From assembly GCA_021324435.1 (NCBI GenBank), contig JAJPIZ010000028.1, positions 1 to 64,000 on the forward strand: a stretch of DNA of 64,000 bases. Direction: 5' to 3'. Position 1 is the stretch's first letter. Each line of letters opens with the position of its first letter. Below the pieces are notes generated by a model. That model made no database searches, was not told where the DNA came from, and was given only the letters and a program-made list of their open reading frames with translations. This document shows, piece after piece, positions 43,262 to 53,934 of the stretch. Source of the DNA: Anaerolineae bacterium. GTDB taxonomy: Bacteria; Chloroflexota; Anaerolineae; Anaerolineales; Villigracilaceae. The translations under genes and the position numbers were made by a program.

Positions 43262-45739
43262 ATGGCTGGCATGGAACGCTTTACCCAGCGTGCGCGGCGG
43301 GTTCTCAGTTTAGCCCATCAGGAAGCTGAGCGCTCCCGCCAAAACAGTATCGGTACCGAACACCTGCTCCTCGGTCTTATGGAAGAAGAGGGTGGAGTCG
43401 CAGGTCGCGTTTTACGTGAATTAGGATTGGAATCGAATCGCGTGCGCGAAATTATCGAACGCGTGAGTGTGGAAAGCCGCCACGACGACGGCAAGATTGA
43501 ACTCGCGCCGGATACGCAACAAGTCCTTGAATATGCAGTGGACGAGGCGCGCCGCCTCGGTCATCATTACATCGGAACCGAACACATCCTGCTCGGGCTG
43601 GTCCGCGTGGAAGGCACGGCCATGGAAGTGCTTCGCAGACTCGGCGTCACCGCGGACCAAATCCGCAGGCAGACTCGTCGCGTGCTGAACGAGACCGCTT
43701 CGGCCCCCGCTCCAGCCGGGTCGCCGCAACCCGCGCGGGCTCCCACTTCCGGGCCAAAGACCCCGCTTGTAGACCAACTCGCCGCGGACCTGACCACCAT
43801 GGCCGAAGAAAAGAAACTCGACCCGGTCATTGGCCGCCAAATGGAAATCGAACGCGTCATTCAAATCTTGGCGCGCCGCACGAAAAACAATCCCGCTCTC
43901 ATCGGCGAACCGGGCGTGGGCAAGACCGCCATCGTGGAAGGACTCGCTCAACGCATCGTCGAAGGCGATGTCCCCGCGCCGTTGATGAACAAGCGCGTCC
44001 TTCAACTCGATGTGGGTTCCCTCGTCGCTGGGACAATGTATCGCGGCCAGTTCGAGGAAAGACTCAAACGCGTGATTGATGAGTTGAAGCAATCGGGCGC
44101 GATTCTTTTCATTGACGAAGTCCACATGCTGGTCGGCGCGGGAGCCGCAGGTTCTTCCGTTGATGCGGCCAACATCCTCAAGCCCGCCTTGTCGCGCGGC
44201 GAATTGCAAGTCATCGGCGCCACCACACTGGATGAATACCGCAAACACATTGAATCGGATGCCGCGCTCGAACGCCGCTTCCAGCCCGTGCAAGTGGATG
44301 AGCCGACCGAAGAAGAAACAATCGAAATTCTCAAAGGCATCCGCTCCGCGTACGAGGAACATCATCATCTTGTGATTTCAGATGAAGCCCTCGAAGCGGC
44401 AGCCCATTTATCGTCGAGGTATGTGCCGGAACGCTTCCTCCCCGACAAAGCCATTGACCTGATTGACGAGTCGTCCTCGCGCGTGCGCATGTACAAAAGT
44501 CCAGCCGCCAAACAAGCCAAGGATTTATTTACGCAGCTTCGCGCTGCGCGCCAGAACCGTTCGCTCGCGCAGGAGGAAGGCAACACCGAAGACATCAAAG
44601 AGTGGGAGGAGCGCGAAACTGATTTGGGCGAACAGATCGAGCGCCTGCGCTCCGGCTGGGATCGCGCCAACAGTCCCGTCGTTTCAGCGGAAGACATCGC
44701 CGAAGTGGTTTCGATGTGGACCGGTGTGCCGCTGATGCAACTCGCGGAAGAAGAATCGCAACGTCTGTTGAAGATGGAAGATGAATTACGCAAGTCCATC
44801 ATCGGGCAGGAAGATGCCATCCTTGCCATCTCGCGCGCCGTGCGCCGCGCCCGCGCCGGGTTGAAAGATCCGAAGCGACCGATTGGTTCATTTATTTTCC
44901 TCGGCCCCACCGGCGTTGGAAAAACAGAACTTACCAAAGCGCTTGCCAAATTTATGTTTGGCAGTGAAGACGCCGCCATTCAACTCGATATGTCCGAGTT
45001 CATGGAACGTCACACGGCTTCGCGTTTGGTCGGCGCGCCTCCCGGTTATGTCGGCTACGAAGATGCGGGTCAATTAACTGAAGCGTTGCGTCGCAGACCA
45101 TACTCGATTGTCGTGTTCGATGAAATCGAAAAGGCGCATCCCGAAGTTCACAACATGCTTTTGCAGATCATGGAGGAAGGTCACCTCAGCGATGCCAAAG
45201 GCCGCAAGGTGGATTTCCGCAATGCCATCATCGTGATGACCTCCAACATCGGCGCGGACATGATCAAGAAACAGACGCTTGGCTTCCAGTTGAAACGCGA
45301 TGAAGAAGTCGAAGAGAAAATTTCGTACGAAGACATGCGCAAGAAATTGAACGAATCCCTCAAGCGCGCCTTCCGACCGGAATTCATCAACCGGCTCGAC
45401 AGCGTGATCATCTTCCGTTCGTTGAACAGGGAAGACATCGAGAAGATCGTTTCGCTCGAACTGGACAAGGTGGCAGAGCGCCTCAAGGACCATCAACTTA
45501 CGCTGACGGCAACTCCCGCGGCGCTTTCGGCTTTGTCTGAACAGGGCTACGATCCTGAATTCGGCGCGCGTCCACTGCGTCGCGTCATCCAGCAGAAAGT
45601 GGAAGACCCCCTCTCCGATAAATTGCTCTCAGGTGAATTGATGGACGGCGACTTCGTCGAAGTGGACATTGACCCCGACGGCGATGTGATCCTGAAACGG
45701 GCCGAAGAAAAAACCTCGGCAGCGGCTACGGTGGCATGA
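43262..45739 (+). CDS. clpC: ATP-dependent Clp protease ATP-binding subunit ClpC
   Basis: AAA+ unfoldase of 825 residues. Clp-N repeats (about 5-145), a Ser/Pro/Ala linker (145-170), first AAA+ module with GEPGVGKT and [20 protein letters not shown], short M-domain with UVR-like residues, second module with [14 protein letters not shown] and the ClpP-docking LGF (TLGFQLK). It hands substrates to ClpP. A second paralog lies at 160. An upstream hairpin may control it. The two differ in N-domain and linker, which suggests different adaptors. Confidence 0.96.
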
Positions 45740-45753
45740 TTAGGTCAGAATCA

Positions 45754-45790
45754 AAAGAGCGCAGAGAATCGCTGCGCTCTTTATTTTTTT
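45754..45790 (+). terminator. terminator of clpC
   Basis: An 11-bp stem AAAGAGCGCAG/CTGCGCTCTTT with a 7-base loop, followed by a run of seven T. Confidence 0.9.
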
Positions 45791-45804: not shown

Positions 45805-46626
45805 TCAATGAGTCTGCCCGATCTTGATCACATACACATCCACGGGCTGGCTGATGCCTTTCAATTCAAGATGCCGGCTTTCAAGACTTTGCGTTTCAAG
45901 CTTCGCTGACTTGATCGAATCCTCGCTGACGAGTATTTCCCCGGTCGCCGCGGAGGATGACAGCCGCGCGCATAAATTCGCCGCGCTGCCCAACACAGCA
46001 ATCTCATTGACTCCACTTCCGGAACCCACCGCACCGACATACGCCATGCCTGTGTGAATCCCCACGCCAACCGGCACCCACGGGCCGTTTGAGTCTTCAT
46101 GACCGGTGACGCGCAAAAGTTCGCGGGCGGCATGGATGGCGACCTTGGCATGGTCCTTGCCAGCGAAGCGCGGGACGAACAGCGCGCTGACCTGATCTCC
46201 CATCAGCCGATTGACCATGGCGTTATGGTCTATCAAGATACTGCTGGTCGTTTTATAAAAACGTTGAATGATGTCCTTGAATTCGGAAGTTGGCTTCGAT
46301 TCAGCCAGCGGCGTGGAACCGCGTACATCCGCAAACAACATGCTTAGTTCCACTTCCGCGCCGCTTTCCTGCTCGCGGGCCGCCTTTTCACAACTGCTAC
46401 ACAATTTCGAACTGAACGTGGATGGTTTGGAGCCCATAAAGCGGAGAAGAGTCCCCCCAATCCCCGCCATAGGAATCCCGCATTCCAAACAATGCGGGTC
46501 GCTGGGAATAGGCTTGTATATTCTTTGGGAAAGTTGCATGAAGCGCAGGAACTCAGCAGGAGGTTTACCGGGCCACTCACCGGTGAGGTACCAATACCAG
46601 ACGTCGTTAAAGGGAATATCGGGCAT
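45805..46626 (-). CDS. class III adenylate/guanylate cyclase
   Basis: A 273-residue cytosolic cyclase. The N-terminal part (1-85) has a zinc-ribbon-like pair of Cys motifs (CLECG, CSSC). The cyclase domain (about 90-265) has metal-binding Asp in MLFADVRGST and NRLMGDQVSALF, and GVGIHTGMAYVGAVGSG. It makes cAMP or cGMP; the specificity is not settled by sequence. Convergent with clpC. Confidence 0.9.
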   Translation of the reverse strand: MPDIPFNDVWYWYLTGEWPGKPPAEFLRFMQLSQRIYKPIPSDPHCLECGIPMAGIGGTLLRFMGSKPSTFSSKLCSSCEKAAREQESGAEVELSMLFADVRGSTPLAESKPTSEFKDIIQRFYKTTSSILIDHNAMVNRLMGDQVSALFVPRFAGKDHAKVAIHAARELLRVTGHEDSNGPWVPVGVGIHTGMAYVGAVGSGSGVNEIAVLGSAANLCARLSSSAATGEILVSEDSIKSAKLETQSLESRHLELKGISQPVDVYVIKIGQTH

Positions 46627-46775: not shown

Positions 46776-47327
46776 ATGAACAGCAATCTTCAAACTGCAA
46801 CACTGGCCGGAGGATGCTTCTGGTGCCTGGAGGCCGTTTTCGATGAAGTAAAGGGCGTACAATCGGTAGAGTCCGGGTATGCGGGCGGGCACGTCGCCAA
46901 TCCCTCCTACCGCGAGGTTTGCACGGGCGCGACGGGTCACGCGGAAGCGGTGCAGGTCACGTTTGACCCGCAGGTCGTTTCGTACAAAGATATCTTGAAT
47001 GTTTTCTTCGCCATCCATGATCCAACCACGCTCAACCGCCAGGGCGCGGATGTGGGCACACAGTACCGCTCAGCCATCTTTTATCACAACGATGGGCAGA
47101 AGCAGATTGCTGAAAGCCTGATCAAAGAACTGAACGATCAGCACATTTGGGATCATCCCATCGTGACCGAAGTCTCGAAGAGCAATGCCTTTTACCGCGC
47201 CGAAGATTACCATCAGGAATACTTTGCCAAGAATCCATATCAGCCCTATTGCCAGGCCGTAGTCGCGCCGAAGGTGGCAAAGTTTCGCAAGTATCATCTG
47301 GAGATGCTAAAGAAGCAACCTGTGTAA
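46776..47327 (+). CDS. msrA: peptide methionine sulfoxide reductase A
   Basis: A 183-residue MsrA that reduces methionine-S-sulfoxide. Catalytic Cys14 in [11 protein letters not shown], plus the signature [18 protein letters not shown] and [23 protein letters not shown] precedes the ATG. The C-terminus ends [14 protein letters not shown], and a second copy of just this end lies at 52105-52152. A strong terminator follows. Confidence 0.97.
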
Positions 47328-47336
47328 ATTGCTCGT

Positions 47337-47374
47337 AGACCCTTAAGATTTGCGAAATCTTAAGGGTCTTTTTT
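47337..47374 (+). terminator. terminator of msrA
   Basis: A 15-bp stem AGACCCTTAAGATTT/AAATCTTAAGGGTCT with a 3-base loop and T-run. It lies between convergent genes and could act on the minus strand too. Confidence 0.92.
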
Positions 47375-47388
47375 GCGCACATGGCGTT

Positions 47389-48171
47389 CTATTTCGATGC
47401 CCGGATGGTGACACCCAACGTGCCGAACTCGGCCGCATCGGAGTGTTGCGCCGCGCCGCTGAACACATCCTTGCCCCAAACCACCTCAATATCCTTGAAA
47501 CCAGCCGCTGCGACCTTCTGCTCGAGTTGAACTTTGAGCAATCCACCGGCAATACAGCCTGTCCACAAAGTAATGTCGCTTTTGGCTCCTTCAGGCACCG
47601 GCTTCTGGAGGGCAATATCCGCTATCTGGATGTGGCCGCCCGATTTGAGAACGCGATACATTTCCAGTAGGGCCGCATCTTTATCTGGAACGAGGTTTAG
47701 AACGCCATTCGAAATGACCACGTCCGCCCAGGCATCAGGAACAGGCAATAATTCAAGATAACCCTCGCGGAATTCGACATTCGTGAGTCCGGCTTCTACA
47801 GCGTTATGCCTCGCTTTCGAAAGCATCTCCGGGGTCATGTCCACGCCAATGACACGTCCATTTGGAGCGACCATTCGGGCCGCAATCAGGCTATCTGTGC
47901 CCGAGCCACTTCCGCAATCCACAACGTACTCGCCAGGTTTGAGTTCTCCCAAGCTGAACGGATTGCCCGTCCCTGCCATTGACTCAATCGCGCTGGAGGG
48001 AAGTCTATTCAGCCATTCATCTTGATAACCTAGAATGCCTGCAAGTTTACGGCCCGTATGGAAGTGGAAGCCGCGCTCAGGGTCATTTGCCACGGCTGAG
48101 TATTCCTCACGAATGGATTTTCGCAGTTCTTCGATATCAATATTCAAGCCTGCTATGGTTGTATTAGTCAT
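47389..48171 (-). CDS. SAM-dependent methyltransferase, ArsM-like
   Basis: A 260-residue class I methyltransferase. Motif I is VVDCGSGSGTDSLIAA, followed by VIGVDMTPEMLSKAR, as in arsenite methyltransferases and their relatives. A Cys is present in motif I and in TLWTGCIAGGL, which corresponds to the conserved Cys stretch of ArsM; the third Cys is not evident. It could methylate arsenic or another thiophilic or small substrate. AGGAGA precedes the ATG. It is the last gene of the OsmC-DUF2182-DUF1326 operon, 41 bases after the DUF1326 gene. Confidence 0.8.
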   Translation of the reverse strand: MTNTTIAGLNIDIEELRKSIREEYSAVANDPERGFHFHTGRKLAGILGYQDEWLNRLPSSAIESMAGTGNPFSLGELKPGEYVVDCGSGSGTDSLIAARMVAPNGRVIGVDMTPEMLSKARHNAVEAGLTNVEFREGYLELLPVPDAWADVVISNGVLNLVPDKDAALLEMYRVLKSGGHIQIADIALQKPVPEGAKSDITLWTGCIAGGLLKVQLEQKVAAAGFKDIEVVWGKDVFSGAAQHSDAAEFGTLGVTIRASK

Positions 48172-48212
48172 GATCTACTCTCCTAATGAATTTAGATTTG
48201 TTGACATGCGGG

Positions 48213-48827
48213 CTACGGTCCGCGCCAGTGGCCTCGCATCGCGATCGCGGTACGACCCGCAAAACTGTAACGCAGTCCATCTGCCTGCACTCGGAACGTC
48301 TTGCACGAAAAATGATCTTCGCGCTTGCTGATCATCCCGCTAGGCAATGCAATCGAAGCGTGATGCTCTTTGGCGGTTACAGGATTGCGTATCGGCTCGA
48401 ACGTTACTTCCACGGCTTCTCCTGCTCGGAAAAGGCTATGCTTCCCGGCGAATTTAAATTCGATACGGGCAGTGTGTATTTCAAGTCCAGCATCAATGGT
48501 CGACATGAAAATTCCGATTGGCCCTCCTGCCTGACCTATGGCAATGGATTCCAATGCCGGGCGTTGTGCACCGGTTGCTCGTTGATCGAGGTATACAACC
48601 CCGCGTCCATTCTTCTCATGCAATGGCCCGGGCCAAGCCGCCGCGAGTATCCACTTCAGCCCTGCGAGTGAGGTGTTGCCGTAGTGACCTTTGACCACCC
48701 GATAAGCCTCCGCGGATTCGCATGTGCCATAGGTCGGTGGTGAGTTGAATGAGCAGGGGCAGCCCCAATTGCAATTGCACGCCATCAAGTGCTCGATCTC
48801 CAGTCGCCACTTAATTGGTTTATTCAA
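48213..48827 (-). CDS. DUF1326 domain protein (CNCNWGCPC)
   Basis: A 204-residue protein whose N-terminal stretch IEHLMACNCNWGCPCSFN gives four Cys for a metal or thiol site, the hallmark of DUF1326. It probably starts at TTG, one base after the stop of the DUF2182 gene, with GAGGAG in the overlap; longer starts run into that gene. The rest is a beta-rich domain with no known catalytic motif. Coupled with DUF2182 as in many genomes (known pairing); function not established. Confidence 0.85.
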   Translation of the reverse strand: MNKPIKWRLEIEHLMACNCNWGCPCSFNSPPTYGTCESAEAYRVVKGHYGNTSLAGLKWILAAAWPGPLHEKNGRGVVYLDQRATGAQRPALESIAIGQAGGPIGIFMSTIDAGLEIHTARIEFKFAGKHSLFRAGEAVEVTFEPIRNPVTAKEHHASIALPSGMISKREDHFSCKTFRVQADGLRYSFAGRTAIAMRGHWRGP

Positions 48828-48828
48828 T

Positions 48829-49596
48829 TCACATCTCCTCGACAACGGTATGCATAGAGATGATTCCCAATACAATCGCCGCGCCCGCAACAATCAGGCT
48901 TGCACCGATCCACCGAGCCAAACGTTCGCCGCCAGGCACAATCTTCTCTACAGAGATAACAAATCCGATCAATAGCATCCATACCGGATTCACCATGCCC
49001 AGCGCGATGAGTGCCAGCATGAGTCCCCAGCAGCAACCGACGCAATACATTCCATGCTGTGCACCCATCCGCAACGCGCCGGCCATTCCATCATGCCAAT
49101 GCTCCGTGAAGAAATGCAGCAGCGACCGGCAATGACCCAGGCAGAATGACTTCCAACGCGTAAATTGATAAACGCCCGCGCCAATGAGTGCAGTGCCTGA
49201 GACCCATGAGCCTCCGGCGTGCGCGACTGGCTTGCCTACGAGATTGAATGCGGCAACGCCAAAACCCACGATTGCCCACGCGCCCAGATAACCCGCAACG
49301 AAAATCAGCGCGGGCGCCGGGCGAAATCCAAAGCGTATACGCGATTGTGCAATGGCGAGGAATAGCCAAACGGTTGGCAGCAGGGAAGGGAACATCATCG
49401 CCACCATCATGACTGTCCACAACGCAACAAATACCAACATGTTCGGTAGCGACTTCATCTGCATCAATACGTTGTCTGGCTGCCGCAGGCTCATCCACCA
49501 GGCTAATACCGAGCTCAGTAACAAACCCGCTCCAATCAGGAGCTTTGTGCGCTGCAAGCGACGATCAGGATGTAGAAGGTTTGGATCGTGAGTCAT
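48829..49596 (-). CDS. DUF2182 predicted metal-binding membrane protein
   Basis: A 255-residue membrane protein with about seven helices. Cys and His are in hydrophobic segments: SFCLGHCRSLLHFF and GMYCVGCCWGLM, with MMVAMMFP and TWVAM-like Met-rich stretches. This fits COG5486/DUF2182, predicted to bind metal, probably copper or similar (inference). It overlaps nothing but ends one base before the DUF1326 start; the 42-base gap upstream separates it from the 161-residue membrane protein gene. Confidence 0.88.
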   Translation of the reverse strand: MTHDPNLLHPDRRLQRTKLLIGAGLLLSSVLAWWMSLRQPDNVLMQMKSLPNMLVFVALWTVMMVAMMFPSLLPTVWLFLAIAQSRIRFGFRPAPALIFVAGYLGAWAIVGFGVAAFNLVGKPVAHAGGSWVSGTALIGAGVYQFTRWKSFCLGHCRSLLHFFTEHWHDGMAGALRMGAQHGMYCVGCCWGLMLALIALGMVNPVWMLLIGFVISVEKIVPGGERLARWIGASLIVAGAAIVLGIISMHTVVEEM

Positions 49597-49638
49597 GGTG
49601 TCTTCTCTACTAAGAATCAGCGGTTGCTCCTTACCGCA

Positions 49639-50124
49639 TTATTGCGACAATTTGAGAGCATTGTATGAGAGCACTGTGCCAATCAATAGGACTACAGCGT
49701 CCAGATAGATCAACCCCAAGTGTCCGAAGGTCCCGATCCCATATGAGAAATGCAGGGGCAGGGCAATCGCGACGCCGATCACAGGTGTGATGAAGGCTGT
49801 CCACATCGCCCATTTCTGGCCGTTGCGGATTCCAAACCAGGCCAACGCGATGACTGCTACGCCGAGCGCGATGATGAATGCAGAGACGGCAACCTGAAGG
49901 TGGCTAATATACTCGTACAGATCAACGCTGAATGCCCTGATCTGCTCTGGGGTTCCACCGACGTGCGCAGGGGTGAGGCCTAATTCGATGAACCCCGTAA
50001 AGTTGCGGATCAGGAACATGATTCCGTAGCCTACGAGCCCGACTCCGGCAAGCGCGACAACATTTGCTCCCAGGTTTGCAGAAGCAGTCCTTGTTTGGGA
50101 TGAAACATTTGATTGAGTAGTCAT
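49639..50124 (-). CDS. four-helix membrane protein, function unknown
   Basis: A 161-residue protein with a hydrophilic N-terminal stretch (MTTQSNVSSQTR), then four hydrophobic segments (about 22-42, 75-97, 107-128, 134-155) around an external loop with GLTPAHVGGTPEQIRAF. GAGGAG precedes the ATG. It is the second gene of the operon. Family not recognised; may belong with the OsmC and DUF2182 proteins. Confidence 0.75.
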   Translation of the reverse strand: MTTQSNVSSQTRTASANLGANVVALAGVGLVGYGIMFLIRNFTGFIELGLTPAHVGGTPEQIRAFSVDLYEYISHLQVAVSAFIIALGVAVIALAWFGIRNGQKWAMWTAFITPVIGVAIALPLHFSYGIGTFGHLGLIYLDAVVLLIGTVLSYNALKLSQ

Positions 50125-50175
50125 GGGATTTTCTCCTCTAATTTATTCATTGATAGGATGCAGGGTTCTCAACGC

Positions 50176-50742
50176 TTAGTCCTTTAGCGAAACTGTCACT
50201 GGGACGGGGTTGCGAACGATGTCAAGCACGGGTGATGTCTTTTGAACGTAATCGCAGAGAGCTATGATTTTCTCGCGTGGGGCGTTGCTTTTTACCTGAT
50301 AGGTCAGGCGGATGCCCTCATAACCGGGGCGTACTTTTTCGGACAGCCCCAGGAAGGCGCGCAAGTCCAAATCTCCTTCCATGTCGAATTTCAGGCTCTC
50401 GATTTCGATCCCCTGCGCGGCGGCATTGTAGATAAAGCCAACAGCCAGGCAGGAAGCCAGGGCATGGAGAACGGCTTCAACGGCATTCGGACCGGCATTG
50501 GCGCTGAGCAATACAGGAGGCTCATCTCCTTCCAGCACGAACGGTTTTGTGCGGGAGACATCTTCCTGACCGGCGCCGTAAAATCCCTGAATAAAGGTTC
50601 GGGAATGACCGCCTTCCAGCCATTCATTGTGGGCCCGAAATTGGAAACGAGCGAGATCGGGATTCTGCTTGATGGCATTGACCGTAGCCATGAGCTGGTC
50701 TACACTCACGCCATTGACAAGAGTTGCGGACTGGGTATTCAT
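50176..50742 (-). CDS. OsmC/Ohr-family peroxide or thiol-stress protein
   Basis: A 188-residue OsmC-like protein. The core helix motif is ALASCLAVGFIYNAAAQGIEI, with the resolving/catalytic Cys in LASC; a second partner Cys is in LCDYVQK. DLRAFLGLSEKVRPGYEGIRL resembles the usual beta-strand region. The start ATG before NTQSATL has AAAGGAA. First gene of the operon, behind a promoter at 50761-50790. Roles of relatives are peroxide reduction or thiol stress protection. Confidence 0.85.
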   Translation of the reverse strand: MNTQSATLVNGVSVDQLMATVNAIKQNPDLARFQFRAHNEWLEGGHSRTFIQGFYGAGQEDVSRTKPFVLEGDEPPVLLSANAGPNAVEAVLHALASCLAVGFIYNAAAQGIEIESLKFDMEGDLDLRAFLGLSEKVRPGYEGIRLTYQVKSNAPREKIIALCDYVQKTSPVLDIVRNPVPVTVSLKD

Positions 50743-50760
50743 GGTTTGATTTCCTTTCTT

Positions 50761-50790
50761 TATAGAAAACGAATTTTCGATATGTTCCAA
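50761..50790 (-). promoter_or_regulatory. candidate promoter of the osmC operon
   Basis: On the minus strand TTGGAA (50790-50785) and TCTATA (50766-50761) are 18 bases apart and end about 20 bases before the ATG, with an AAAGGAA ribosome site between. It lies in the intergenic region that also serves the divergent regulator. Confidence 0.45.
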
Positions 50791-50921
50791 GCATAGACAA
50801 AAACAGGTTGAATGTCTCCACTCAAAAGGATGGAAAGGAGAATGGAAAAAGCCAACCAGGTATGGTAGGATGGCTCAAATGGACACCGTGTTTATGAGTC
50901 TTATTCTTTGAGAAAATTATT

Positions 50922-52055
50922 ATGGAAGATAAAGAGCCGTTACTGACTCCAATCAACAAACGCGAGCAGGAGGTCCTAGAGCGATTGGCAACCGGCTTGT
51001 CGGATCAGCAGATCGCCGATGAGCTGTTCCTGAGCCTTCACACTGTCAAGTGGTACAACCGACAGATTTTTAACAAGCTGGGCGTCAACAGCCGGACACA
51101 AGCCATTACCAAAGCCAGAGCATTGGGCCTCATCGGCGCGAACGATCTCCCTGCACCCATGACCTCTCCGGCAAGTGATCAACCACTGCCCGTAAAGCGC
51201 CAGAAGGTGGAGCATCGCGTCTTGTTTACCACCAGCTTCGATGGGACTCGCATCGCTTTTGCGATTGCCGGAGAAGGCCCACCGTTGGTCAAGGTGGGCA
51301 ATTACATGGGTCACGTCGAATATGATTGGGATAGCCCGGTGTGGGCACATTGGCTGGAGGAATTGACACGCAGTCATACCCTGATCTACTACGACGAACG
51401 CGGCTCAGGATTATCGGATTGGAATGCAGAGGACGTATCATTCGAGTCCTGGGTACGCGATCTTGAGGCAGTGGTGAACGCCGCCAGACTTCAGCGGTTT
51501 CCACTTTTTGCGATGTCACAGGCAGGCGCCGTTGCCGTAGCATATACTGCCCGCCATCCTGACAAGGTCAGCCGTTTGATTGTGCATGGCGCTTACGCAC
51601 GGGGTTGGTTGAAGCGAGACTTAACCGAGGAGCAAATTGAAGAAGAGAAATTGATGATCAGCTTGATGCGGGTTGGATGGGGGCGAGAAAATCCCGCTTT
51701 TCGGCAGGTGTTTGCGATGCAGTTATTTCCCGATGCATCCCCAGAACATATACATGCTTTGGAAGAGCAGATGCGTCTTTCGGTTTCTCCGAAGAACGCG
51801 GTGCGGCTGGAGAGCGAAATGCATCGAATCGATGTGCGGGATCTCGCCTCTCAAATCACAGTCCCGGCGCTGGTGTTGCATTCACGTGAAGATCAAGCAG
51901 TTCCCTTCGAAGAAGGTCGCCTGCTGGCTTCCCTGATTCCCGGGGCGCAGTTCGTCGCGCTGGAGAGTAAGAATCACCTGTTGACTAAAGAGGAAGCCGC
52001 CTGGCCAAAATTCGTGGCAGCGATGCGCAGTTTTCTTAGCGAAGGTGATGAGTAA
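50922..52055 (+). CDS. LuxR-type HTH fused to alpha/beta hydrolase
   Basis: A 377-residue protein. Residues 10-72 form a LuxR HTH (NKREQEVLERLATGLSDQQI, LSLHTVKWYNRQIFNKLGVN). A Pro-rich linker joins an alpha/beta hydrolase (about 98-375) with a full triad: Ser199 in AMSQAGA, Asp324 in SREDQAVPF, His352 in SKNHLLT, and DERGSGLSD in the family lid region. Such order, HTH first and hydrolase as probable sensor, suggests a regulator that binds or cleaves an ester or amide signal. It diverges from the OsmC operon, its likely target. No ribosome site is evident. Confidence 0.85.
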   Translation: MEDKEPLLTPINKREQEVLERLATGLSDQQIADELFLSLHTVKWYNRQIFNKLGVNSRTQAITKARALGLIGANDLPAPMTSPASDQPLPVKRQKVEHRVLFTTSFDGTRIAFAIAGEGPPLVKVGNYMGHVEYDWDSPVWAHWLEELTRSHTLIYYDERGSGLSDWNAEDVSFESWVRDLEAVVNAARLQRFPLFAMSQAGAVAVAYTARHPDKVSRLIVHGAYARGWLKRDLTEEQIEEEKLMISLMRVGWGRENPAFRQVFAMQLFPDASPEHIHALEEQMRLSVSPKNAVRLESEMHRIDVRDLASQITVPALVLHSREDQAVPFEEGRLLASLIPGAQFVALESKNHLLTKEEAAWPKFVAAMRSFLSEGDE

Positions 52056-52062
52056 TCGCAAC

Positions 52063-52152
52063 ATGGATTTCTTAGGGATGCAGGATTTTTGGAAAATGCC
52101 AGCAATGTTCCGCAAGCATCACTTGGAGATGCTGAAGAAACAGCCCGCATAA
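52063..52152 (+). pseudogene. orphan 3' end of an msrA gene
   Basis: The last 16 codons (52105-52152, ending [14 protein letters not shown]-stop) match the end of the intact msrA ([14 protein letters not shown]) in 12 of 14 residues, while most third codon positions differ. Upstream the similarity fades. So this is a separate, older copy of the msrA tail, not a fresh duplication. The readable frame from ATG at 52063 is only 29 codons. Confidence 0.75.
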
Positions 52153-52157
52153 TAAAG

Positions 52158-52190
52158 AGAGCGCAGAAATAATCTCTGCGCTCTTCATTT
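52158..52190 (+). terminator. intrinsic terminator
   Basis: Stem GAGCGCAGA/TCTGCGCTC with a 7-base loop, followed by TTCATTTTC. Lies between the hydrolase-regulator and the minus-strand LppM-like gene; could serve either. Confidence 0.75.
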
Positions 52191-52960: not shown

Positions 52961-53934
52961 ATGATGGACAAATTATCTCTCAAAACATCGCCGGCTTTTT
53001 ATGTTCGCAATATTCCGATTCATGGAGATGCGATTCTGGCCCCCATGGATGGCTACTCGGACTGGCCATTCCGGTCGCTGTGCCGCGAACTTGGCTCGGC
53101 CATGAGTTACACGGAATTCGTGCAGGTCGAGAAGATTCTCAGCCGGTCTGACCGCCCCAGCGCGAAACTTTATTATGAAGAAAAAGAGCGACCGGTCGTA
53201 TTTCAAATTTACGGCGATGATCCGGATTTGATTCTGAAAGCTGCGTTGAAAGTCCAGGAGTTGAAGCCGGACATCATTGACATCAACATGGGCTGTCCGG
53301 CAAAAAGCGTTTCGCATCGTGGCGCAGGCGTGGGGATGATGCTCACGCCCTTGAAAATCGCGCGCACATTCAGGAAGTTGACTGCTGCGCTCAAAGTGCC
53401 TGTTACCGGAAAGATGCGTTTAGGCTGGGAGAATTATCGCTCATACAAATTGATTGCCCGCATCGTGGAGGAGAACGGAGGCGCGCTGATCGCCATCCAC
53501 GGACGGACGAAAGAGCAGGCTTACAGCGGCCACGCGGACTGGGACGCGATTGCCGAGGTCAAGGCCGCGGTGAAGATTCCGGTCATCGGAAGCGGGGATG
53601 TGAAAACGGTCCGCGATATTGAACGGATGAAGAGTCACACAAATTGTGACGCGGTTATGATCGGTCGCGCCGCGATTGCCAATCCATGGATCTTCTCCGG
53701 CCTCGATCGCGAACAAGTTCCATCCGAAGAAGTCCGCAAAGTGATGCGGGATCATCTCGAGCGAATATAAAGTTTTACGGCGAAGAAGATGGACAGCGGC
53801 TTTTCCGCAAACATGCCGTGCAGTATTTGTTGTTGAAGAGTCTTTCACGAGAAGAACGCAAAGATATTTTGCGGCAGAGGCCCTCGCACGAATTTGTCGC
53901 GCTTCTGGATCAAATCTACGTCTCCACGATTTAG
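52961..53934 (+). pseudogene. tRNA-dihydrouridine synthase, frameshifted
   Basis: Two overlapping frames together make one normal DusB-like flavoenzyme of about 324 residues: APMDGYSDWPFRSLCRELG, NMGCPAKSVSHRGAGVGMM, GKMRLGW and HGRTKEQAYSG in the first frame (52961-53770), and KFYGEEDGQRLFRKHAVQYL in the second (to 53934). The junction is near 53760-53772, where the first frame hits TAA; adding one base, for example A or G, restores the frame. Either a recent mutation or a sequencing error. Enzymes reduce uridines in the tRNA D loop. Confidence 0.88.

Follow-up and report, generated by a model that had tools for sequence, protein, structure and literature searches.

Displaced 3' end of a former msrA beside a composite gene block in an Anaerolineae bacterium

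Downstream of its intact msrA, a relative of Anaerolinea carries a composite block of genes, at whose far side the last 14 codons and the stop codon of a former msrA are found, joined to a truncated tetR gene and followed by a terminator-like hairpin (Table 1). All of the former gene except these 14 codons is gone. With a probability of roughly 0.56, we read the arrangement in the window, by which we mean the whole stretch of 64,000 nucleotides analysed here, as the product of a one-step replacement, in which the msrA of a relative, together with an attached cassette, would have displaced the resident msrA through a short-homology join.

Table 1. Features around the intact msrA and the remnant, in window coordinates
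Feature	Position	Strand	Basis or context
clpC, conserved left neighbour of msrA	43262..45739	+	ORF; upstream of msrA in relatives
Terminator-like GAGCGCAG-type hairpin after clpC	45754..45782	+	one of two exact sites in genome
Adenylate/guanylate cyclase-domain gene, between clpC and msrA	45805..46626	-	Pfam Guanylate_cyc
Intact msrA	46776..47327	+	single 183-aa ORF; Pfam PMSR
Terminator-like hairpin of intact msrA, AGACCCT type	47337..47369	+	sequence
SAM methyltransferase	47389..48171	-	Pfam Methyltransf_31; adjoins OsmC-LuxR hydrolase in L167, G155, G028
DUF1326 gene, nested module	48213..48836	-	Pfam; homologue in G040 beside same module
PpoB2/DUF2182-type copper chaperone gene, nested module	48829..49596	-	Pfam
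161-aa protein, hydrophobic by eye, nested module	49639..50124	-	87.5% homologue beside same module in G040
OsmC-family gene	50176..50745	-	Pfam OsmC; 82-92% in G152, G028, G155, L167
LuxR-type HTH + alpha/beta hydrolase fusion	50922..52055	+	Pfam GerE + Abhydrolase_1
tetR gene fragment, taken as cut right end of incoming cassette; reads NIAGIFQKSCIP	~52074..52106	-	tblastn E 5e-4
Junction TTCCGCA	52108..52114	+	in tetR of L167/G152 and many msrA ends
Remnant msrA tail, 14 codons + stop	52108..52152	+	feature listed from 52107
Terminator-like hairpin of former msrA, GAGCGCAG type	52158..52184	+	same type after msrA in G002, G003, G004
Lipoprotein-like gene, 217 aa	52203..52856	-	homologues between msrA and dus in G059, G108, G111, G141

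The remnant, its hairpin and the intact gene

At E values up to 10, the intact gene and the remnant tail are the only msrA-like places in the 3.11-Mb genome of the window's bacterium, with no second full msrA elsewhere in it. Taken alone, the tail reaches an E value of 0.42 genome-wide, and 4.7e-6 within the locus. A C-terminal profile, to which 90 of the 97 msrA proteins contributed their final 40 residues and which was run in six frames over 0.89 Mb of downstream DNA, scored the tail at 20.8 bits, compared with 12.0 bits for the best match in reversed sequence, 9.9 bits for the best upstream match and 8.2 bits for the best non-tail match downstream, a distance from the controls indicating that the remnant is not due to chance. 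This stretch is what is left of a former msrA at its 3' end, terminator included; as a gene tail it is probably functionless. The preliminary description of this DNA had given the remnant 16 codons (52105-52152); the tail stands, while the ATG at 52105-52107, although in frame, is part of the junction. Its view that two related, non-identical msrA alleles are involved, with mostly silent base differences, is borne out, as remnant and intact 3' end agree at 35 of 45 bases and, read by eye, two of the nine codons that differ alter the amino acid (Y to H, V to A), the other seven being synonymous. The nearest matches to the 45 bases of the remnant are in G111 (42/45) and G011 (41/45), followed by six at 40/45 that include G003; being scattered over g17, g7, g8 and g1, they do not place its ancestry, for which the sequence is too short.

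The hairpin behind the remnant reads GAGCGCAG...CTGCGCTC. Across the six genomes of the genus, the exact GAGCGCAG pattern occurs once each in G002, G003 and G004, directly 3' of msrA, and once in G001, on a contig other than that of its msrA match; it is absent from G005. The window's own genome (G000, 3.1 Mb) contains it only twice, once behind clpC (45757) and once behind the remnant (52159). These two hairpins lie 6.4 kb apart, and in G024 a similar one after clpC precedes a homologue of the cyclase gene that stands behind clpC in the window. The intact msrA ends in a different hairpin, whose AGACCCT type also follows msrA in G050, G102 and G034. Hairpin type as a perfect mark of ancestry was weakened by the occurrence of GAGCGCAG-like hairpins after msrA in other genera (G113, G115, G152) and after clpC in G024, and of AGACCCT-like hairpins after clpC in G005, G115 and G055; since such hairpins extend beyond the genus and beyond msrA, we regard them as good, not perfect, evidence of ancestry. 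Judged by them, the remnant and the hairpin behind it resemble the msrA end that is native to the genus, and the intact copy has the look of the newcomer. The preliminary description had attributed the tail to a former msrA, which is supported, and had offered two routes, entry of the block by recombination at msrA or replacement of msrA together with its neighbour genes; the second would be the better fit, given that the hairpin of the intact msrA is of another type.

The PMSR domain of the intact copy is of full length (PF01625, positions 1-153 of 153, E 5.4e-71). In the msrA protein tree (45 rows), this allele clusters (98/95) with two members of its own genus, G003 and G005, and is therefore not visibly foreign. 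G002 and G004 are placed elsewhere by the msrA tree (45 loci), whereas a clpC tree (30 loci) joins G000 with G002, G004 and G003 (98/95); given this disagreement, msrA alleles seem to have moved. The cyclase-domain gene between clpC and msrA is patchy in the family, with homologues of 63-64% identity upstream of msrA in G102, G111, G024 and G151 and one of 42% in opposite orientation in G108; the msrA loci of the five remaining members of the genus contain no match to it. Possibly it was part of the incoming segment.

The block and its junction with the remnant

Homologues of the LuxR-hydrolase gene with 79-87% identity are present in G152, G028, G155 and L167. Among 152 family genomes, a search at E 1e-60 returned, besides the window, G152, G028 and G155 at 79-85% and G033 at 49%; L167, a MAG labelled Anaerolinea thermophila, came from a scan of named genomes and matches at 87%. 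Its genes are ordered methyltransferase-OsmC-LuxR hydrolase-TetR, and msrA is absent from the 17 kb around this cassette; a tetR adjoining the LuxR-hydrolase gene was not found in G028 and G155. The methyltransferase, which we take to be arsM-like, and OsmC are adjacent in L167, G155 and G028, while the window has the DUF1326, copper chaperone and 161-aa genes between them. Homologues of these three stand together in G040 (56-88%), and at E 1e-20 the chaperone gene is confined to three of the 152 family genomes, one of them the window's own. The adjacency of methyltransferase and OsmC elsewhere, together with the grouping of the three genes in G040, indicates that one module is nested in another; by gene order, then, the block reads as a composite, with a DUF1326/copper-chaperone module within a methyltransferase-OsmC-LuxR hydrolase-TetR cassette. 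The block had been delimited in the preliminary description as 47328-52104; its right end has to be moved to about 52106, so as to take in the tetR fragment, and it comprises two nested modules. A shift in composition at the block edges was sought as a further mark and discarded, as GC in 1-kb windows is 0.49-0.56 in the block and 0.48-0.59 around it, with no clear step. A donor with msrA joined to the cassette in the window's order was not found. G152, which belongs to another genus, carries the cassette 5' of msrA (L161 4272-6155 and 986-1567), apparently as a separate acquisition; the order there, at the same chromosomal place, is OsmC - LuxR hydrolase - TetR - two ORFs - msrA - GAGCGCAG hairpin - dus.

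At its right side, the homology between window and cassette extends beyond the stop of the LuxR-hydrolase gene and ends between 52063 and 52073; relative to G152, a stretch between this stop and the tetR fragment is missing from the window. The interior of tetR is matched by window positions 52080-52114, at 30 of 35 bases in L167, and for tetR of both L167 and G152 the best position anywhere in the 64-kb window is 52080-52113 (29/34 and 28/34, respectively). At the protein level, RNIAGIFQKSCIP aligns with RNIAAVFQKSCLP. Seven exact bases, TTCCGCA, are common to tetR of L167, tetR of G152 and the remnant; the same motif is present in 61 of the 97 msrA ends, including those of G002 and G004 of the genus, and absent in G003 and G005. 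The switch from tetR to msrA lies at its left edge, where 52106 fits tetR and 52107 (G) fits msrA and not tetR, which places the switch just left of TTCCGCA unless this base changed later. With the intact msrA standing in for the lost part, the likeness would reach GCAAxxTTCCGCA. These features suggest a short-homology (illegitimate) join like that in homology-facilitated illegitimate recombination (HFIR), for which 3-10 bp of shared sequence at one join and homology at the other end are reported (PMC3240628).

The msrA-dus gap in the family

Of the 152 family genomes searched, 133 have an msrA match; 97 loci, the window and 96 others, were examined and 36 of the 133 left out. Genes here are mostly arranged mazG-clpC-msrA-dus-radA. 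Of the 97 loci, 72 show a downstream dus on the strand of msrA and two on the opposite strand, while the stretch has none in 23. In 50 of the 72 same-strand loci the msrA-dus gap is at most 300 bp, with 49 bp in G005 of the same genus, and in the remaining 22 it is larger, which makes occupation of this gap frequent. Close genomes lacking the block thus carry an intact msrA at the empty site, as the preliminary description had proposed to check, and in G002, G003 and G004 an intact msrA is followed by the remnant's type of hairpin. Neither counter-case it had named applies: msrA stands at the site in relatives, and the remnant is not a conserved small gene, as set out below. Between remnant and dus, the lipoprotein-like gene in the window was not found in the other five genus genomes. 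In dus, which encodes a tRNA-dihydrouridine synthase and lies close to the remnant, the reading frame is broken ahead of the C-terminal part (window 53690-53775), where the 11 relatives compared read through, reflecting either real inactivation or a sequencing error.

The 33 ORFs from occupied msrA-dus gaps and from the stretches behind msrA in G003, G021 and G113 include five PIN-domain genes, three MFS transporters, four LppM-domain proteins, TPR/hydrolase proteins, and two each of EcoRV-type endonuclease and D12 methylase. The last two stand together between msrA and dus in G055 (L055 7649-9477) and G155 (L118 9583-11444). PIN-domain genes with a ATTATAGCA edge and different flanks lie downstream of msrA in G111 (L077), G113 (L082), G021 (L049) and G108 (L083), before dus in G111 and G108 and with dus out of view in G113 and G021. 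Seven of the eight PIN cassettes whose edge was read end at ATTATAGCA with differing flanks, and this edge abuts an msrA tail in G111 and G113 only.

Leftovers of msrA tails are present in three other loci of the 97 examined, and a decayed one in a fourth. They are clear behind a hemerythrin gene in G003, behind a PIN-domain gene in G111 and, with a broken frame, behind an MFS transporter gene in G165. G113 has the PIN cassette of G111 (78% over 680 bp) and, at the same junction, a decayed tail that scores 7.1 bits, by score alone below control. Tail lengths vary between loci, all falling within roughly the last 40 msrA codons. In G003, where dus was not found on the stretch, a DDE transposase gene stands about 390 bp past the tail (L041 10617-12134), and a transposon may have taken part there.

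For comparison, the start and the end of 1111 ORFs, each 120 aa or longer, were searched in the same loci, a sample biased by having been picked around msrA because of the finding. Among 43 fragmentary end matches, four are msrA tails and none is an msrA head. Five other ORFs (G007, G024, G034, G106, G156) have a same-strand downstream tail match with E below 1e-5, some of them repeat-domain-like by eye. With loci chosen around msrA, this comparison is an indication rather than an unbiased test. The fragment in G156 (L099 13646-14435), tail-like with 52% identity over 38 aa and about 250 bp downstream of its 142-residue ORF, is possibly another displaced gene end.

Possible routes and known systems

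In the one-step replacement that we favour, the remnant would be the 3' end and terminator of an msrA that once stood on the dus side. DNA from a relative, carrying msrA with its own terminator followed by the methyltransferase, the nested DUF1326/copper-chaperone module, OsmC, LuxR-hydrolase and TetR genes, would have aligned by homology with the recipient chromosome, at msrA or slightly upstream of it, while its other end, inside tetR, would have been joined via TTCCGCA to the final codons of the msrA already in place. The new copy would then have taken over, with the resident gene cut down to its tail. Uptake of DNA would be a plausible source, HFIR being a RecA-dependent process that takes place in the course of such uptake. 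The window's genome has ComEC- and DprA-type genes or domains, from which it follows only that genes for uptake are not lacking.

The same right side could also have arisen in two steps, by placement of the cassette between two msrA copies and a later deletion between the short repeats in tetR and the msrA tail. The junction sequence is equally compatible with insertion followed by deletion, and with the cassette 5' of msrA, as in G152, a deletion that began in tetR and reached into the msrA tail would yield the right side seen in the window, where a stretch after the LuxR-hydrolase stop is also missing relative to that genome. However, this course requires an intermediate with two msrA genes, and two full-length copies occur in none of the 152 family genomes searched; nor is the window cassette closer to that of G152 (83.2% over 1902 bp) than to those of L167 (85.4%, 1881 bp) or G028 (84.6%, 1885 bp), and G152's own msrA tail is without TTCCGC. 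We regard the two-step course as possible, yet rather unlikely.

Displaced gene tails are a classical mark of site-specific integration, in which the 3' end of msrA would serve as attachment site, the gene end being restored and the displaced end marking the far side of the insert. The recurrence of tails at msrA, all from the gene's last part and unaccompanied by heads, would agree with this. Against it, the two tails in the window differ at 10 of 45 bases and so offer no exact att core, tail length is not constant between loci, and the junction lies within a truncated tetR. An integrase or recombinase was found neither among the proteins of the window block (ORFs listed, Pfam scan) nor among the 32 Pfam families of the 33 ORFs from other occupied gaps, and a DDE transposase lies near a tail in G003 only, not in the window. 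Site-specific integration at msrA is thereby largely refuted and strikes us as highly improbable. No more credit is due to an assembly chimera of two strains: the genome is assembled in 51 contigs, but to the left and right of the locus the conserved neighbours stand in their expected order, the stated contamination is 0.59, and other genomes carry the same kind of remnant. A conserved small gene is rejected and chance similarity negligible, since the 29-aa frame that spans the remnant (52063-52152) has a full-length match only in G000 among the six genus genomes, its left part is antisense tetR joined to the msrA tail, making the frame an accident of the join, and the score of the tail is far above those of the controls.

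Returning to the one-step replacement, a broader reading, which we offer with considerable doubt, is that msrA acts as a recurrent homologous handle in the family: short cassettes would travel attached to it and be exchanged at the msrA-dus junction without an integrase, short-homology endings leaving an msrA tail as a dated scar. The cargo would then comprise stress genes, PIN toxin-antitoxin pairs and transporters, and possibly EcoRV-type restriction systems. In our judgement, natural illegitimate joins are usually inferred from insertions whose parents are unknown. In the present case each parent of the join, the cassette tetR and the resident msrA, has relatives that can be named, which makes the event readable nearly at base level; repeated scars at one gap would moreover let integrase-free gene gain be counted.

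Among known systems, islands integrate into gene 3' ends by means of tyrosine recombinases and likewise leave an intact gene on one side and a displaced gene end on the other; unlike them, the window has neither an integrase nor an exact repeat, and the tail length is variable. Judged by titles and abstract openings, the literature search found nothing on msrA as an island integration site; a search for gene remnants combined with illegitimate recombination found none. HFIR is described for Streptococcus pneumoniae, Acinetobacter baylyi and Pseudomonas stutzeri (PMC3240628). With it the window shares foreign DNA beside a homologous stretch, a short shared sequence at the other join and the loss of a resident part. 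It differs in being an old product in a lineage known from assemblies, in the base left of the shared seven, which misfits tetR, and in that the homologous end was not located: the intact msrA next to the block is the natural candidate for an anchor, yet its identity to relatives is even from end to end and shows no visible breakpoint.

Displacement of T6SS effectors in Vibrio cholerae leaves old immunity genes behind and, in one instance, the 3' end of an effector gene in a shifted position (PMC5361080). There, too, a new module stands ahead of the old one, the old 3' part has been moved downstream, and HFIR is proposed (PMC5361080); unlike those toxin/immunity genes, whose remnant is possibly beneficial (PMC5361080), ours concern a repair gene and an apparently useless tail. 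In E. coli, illegitimate recombination is considered likely for much of the small variable DNA (PMC2884548). The process itself is a known one; what is added here is the locus, a junction that can be read, and the repeated occurrence of tails at msrA.
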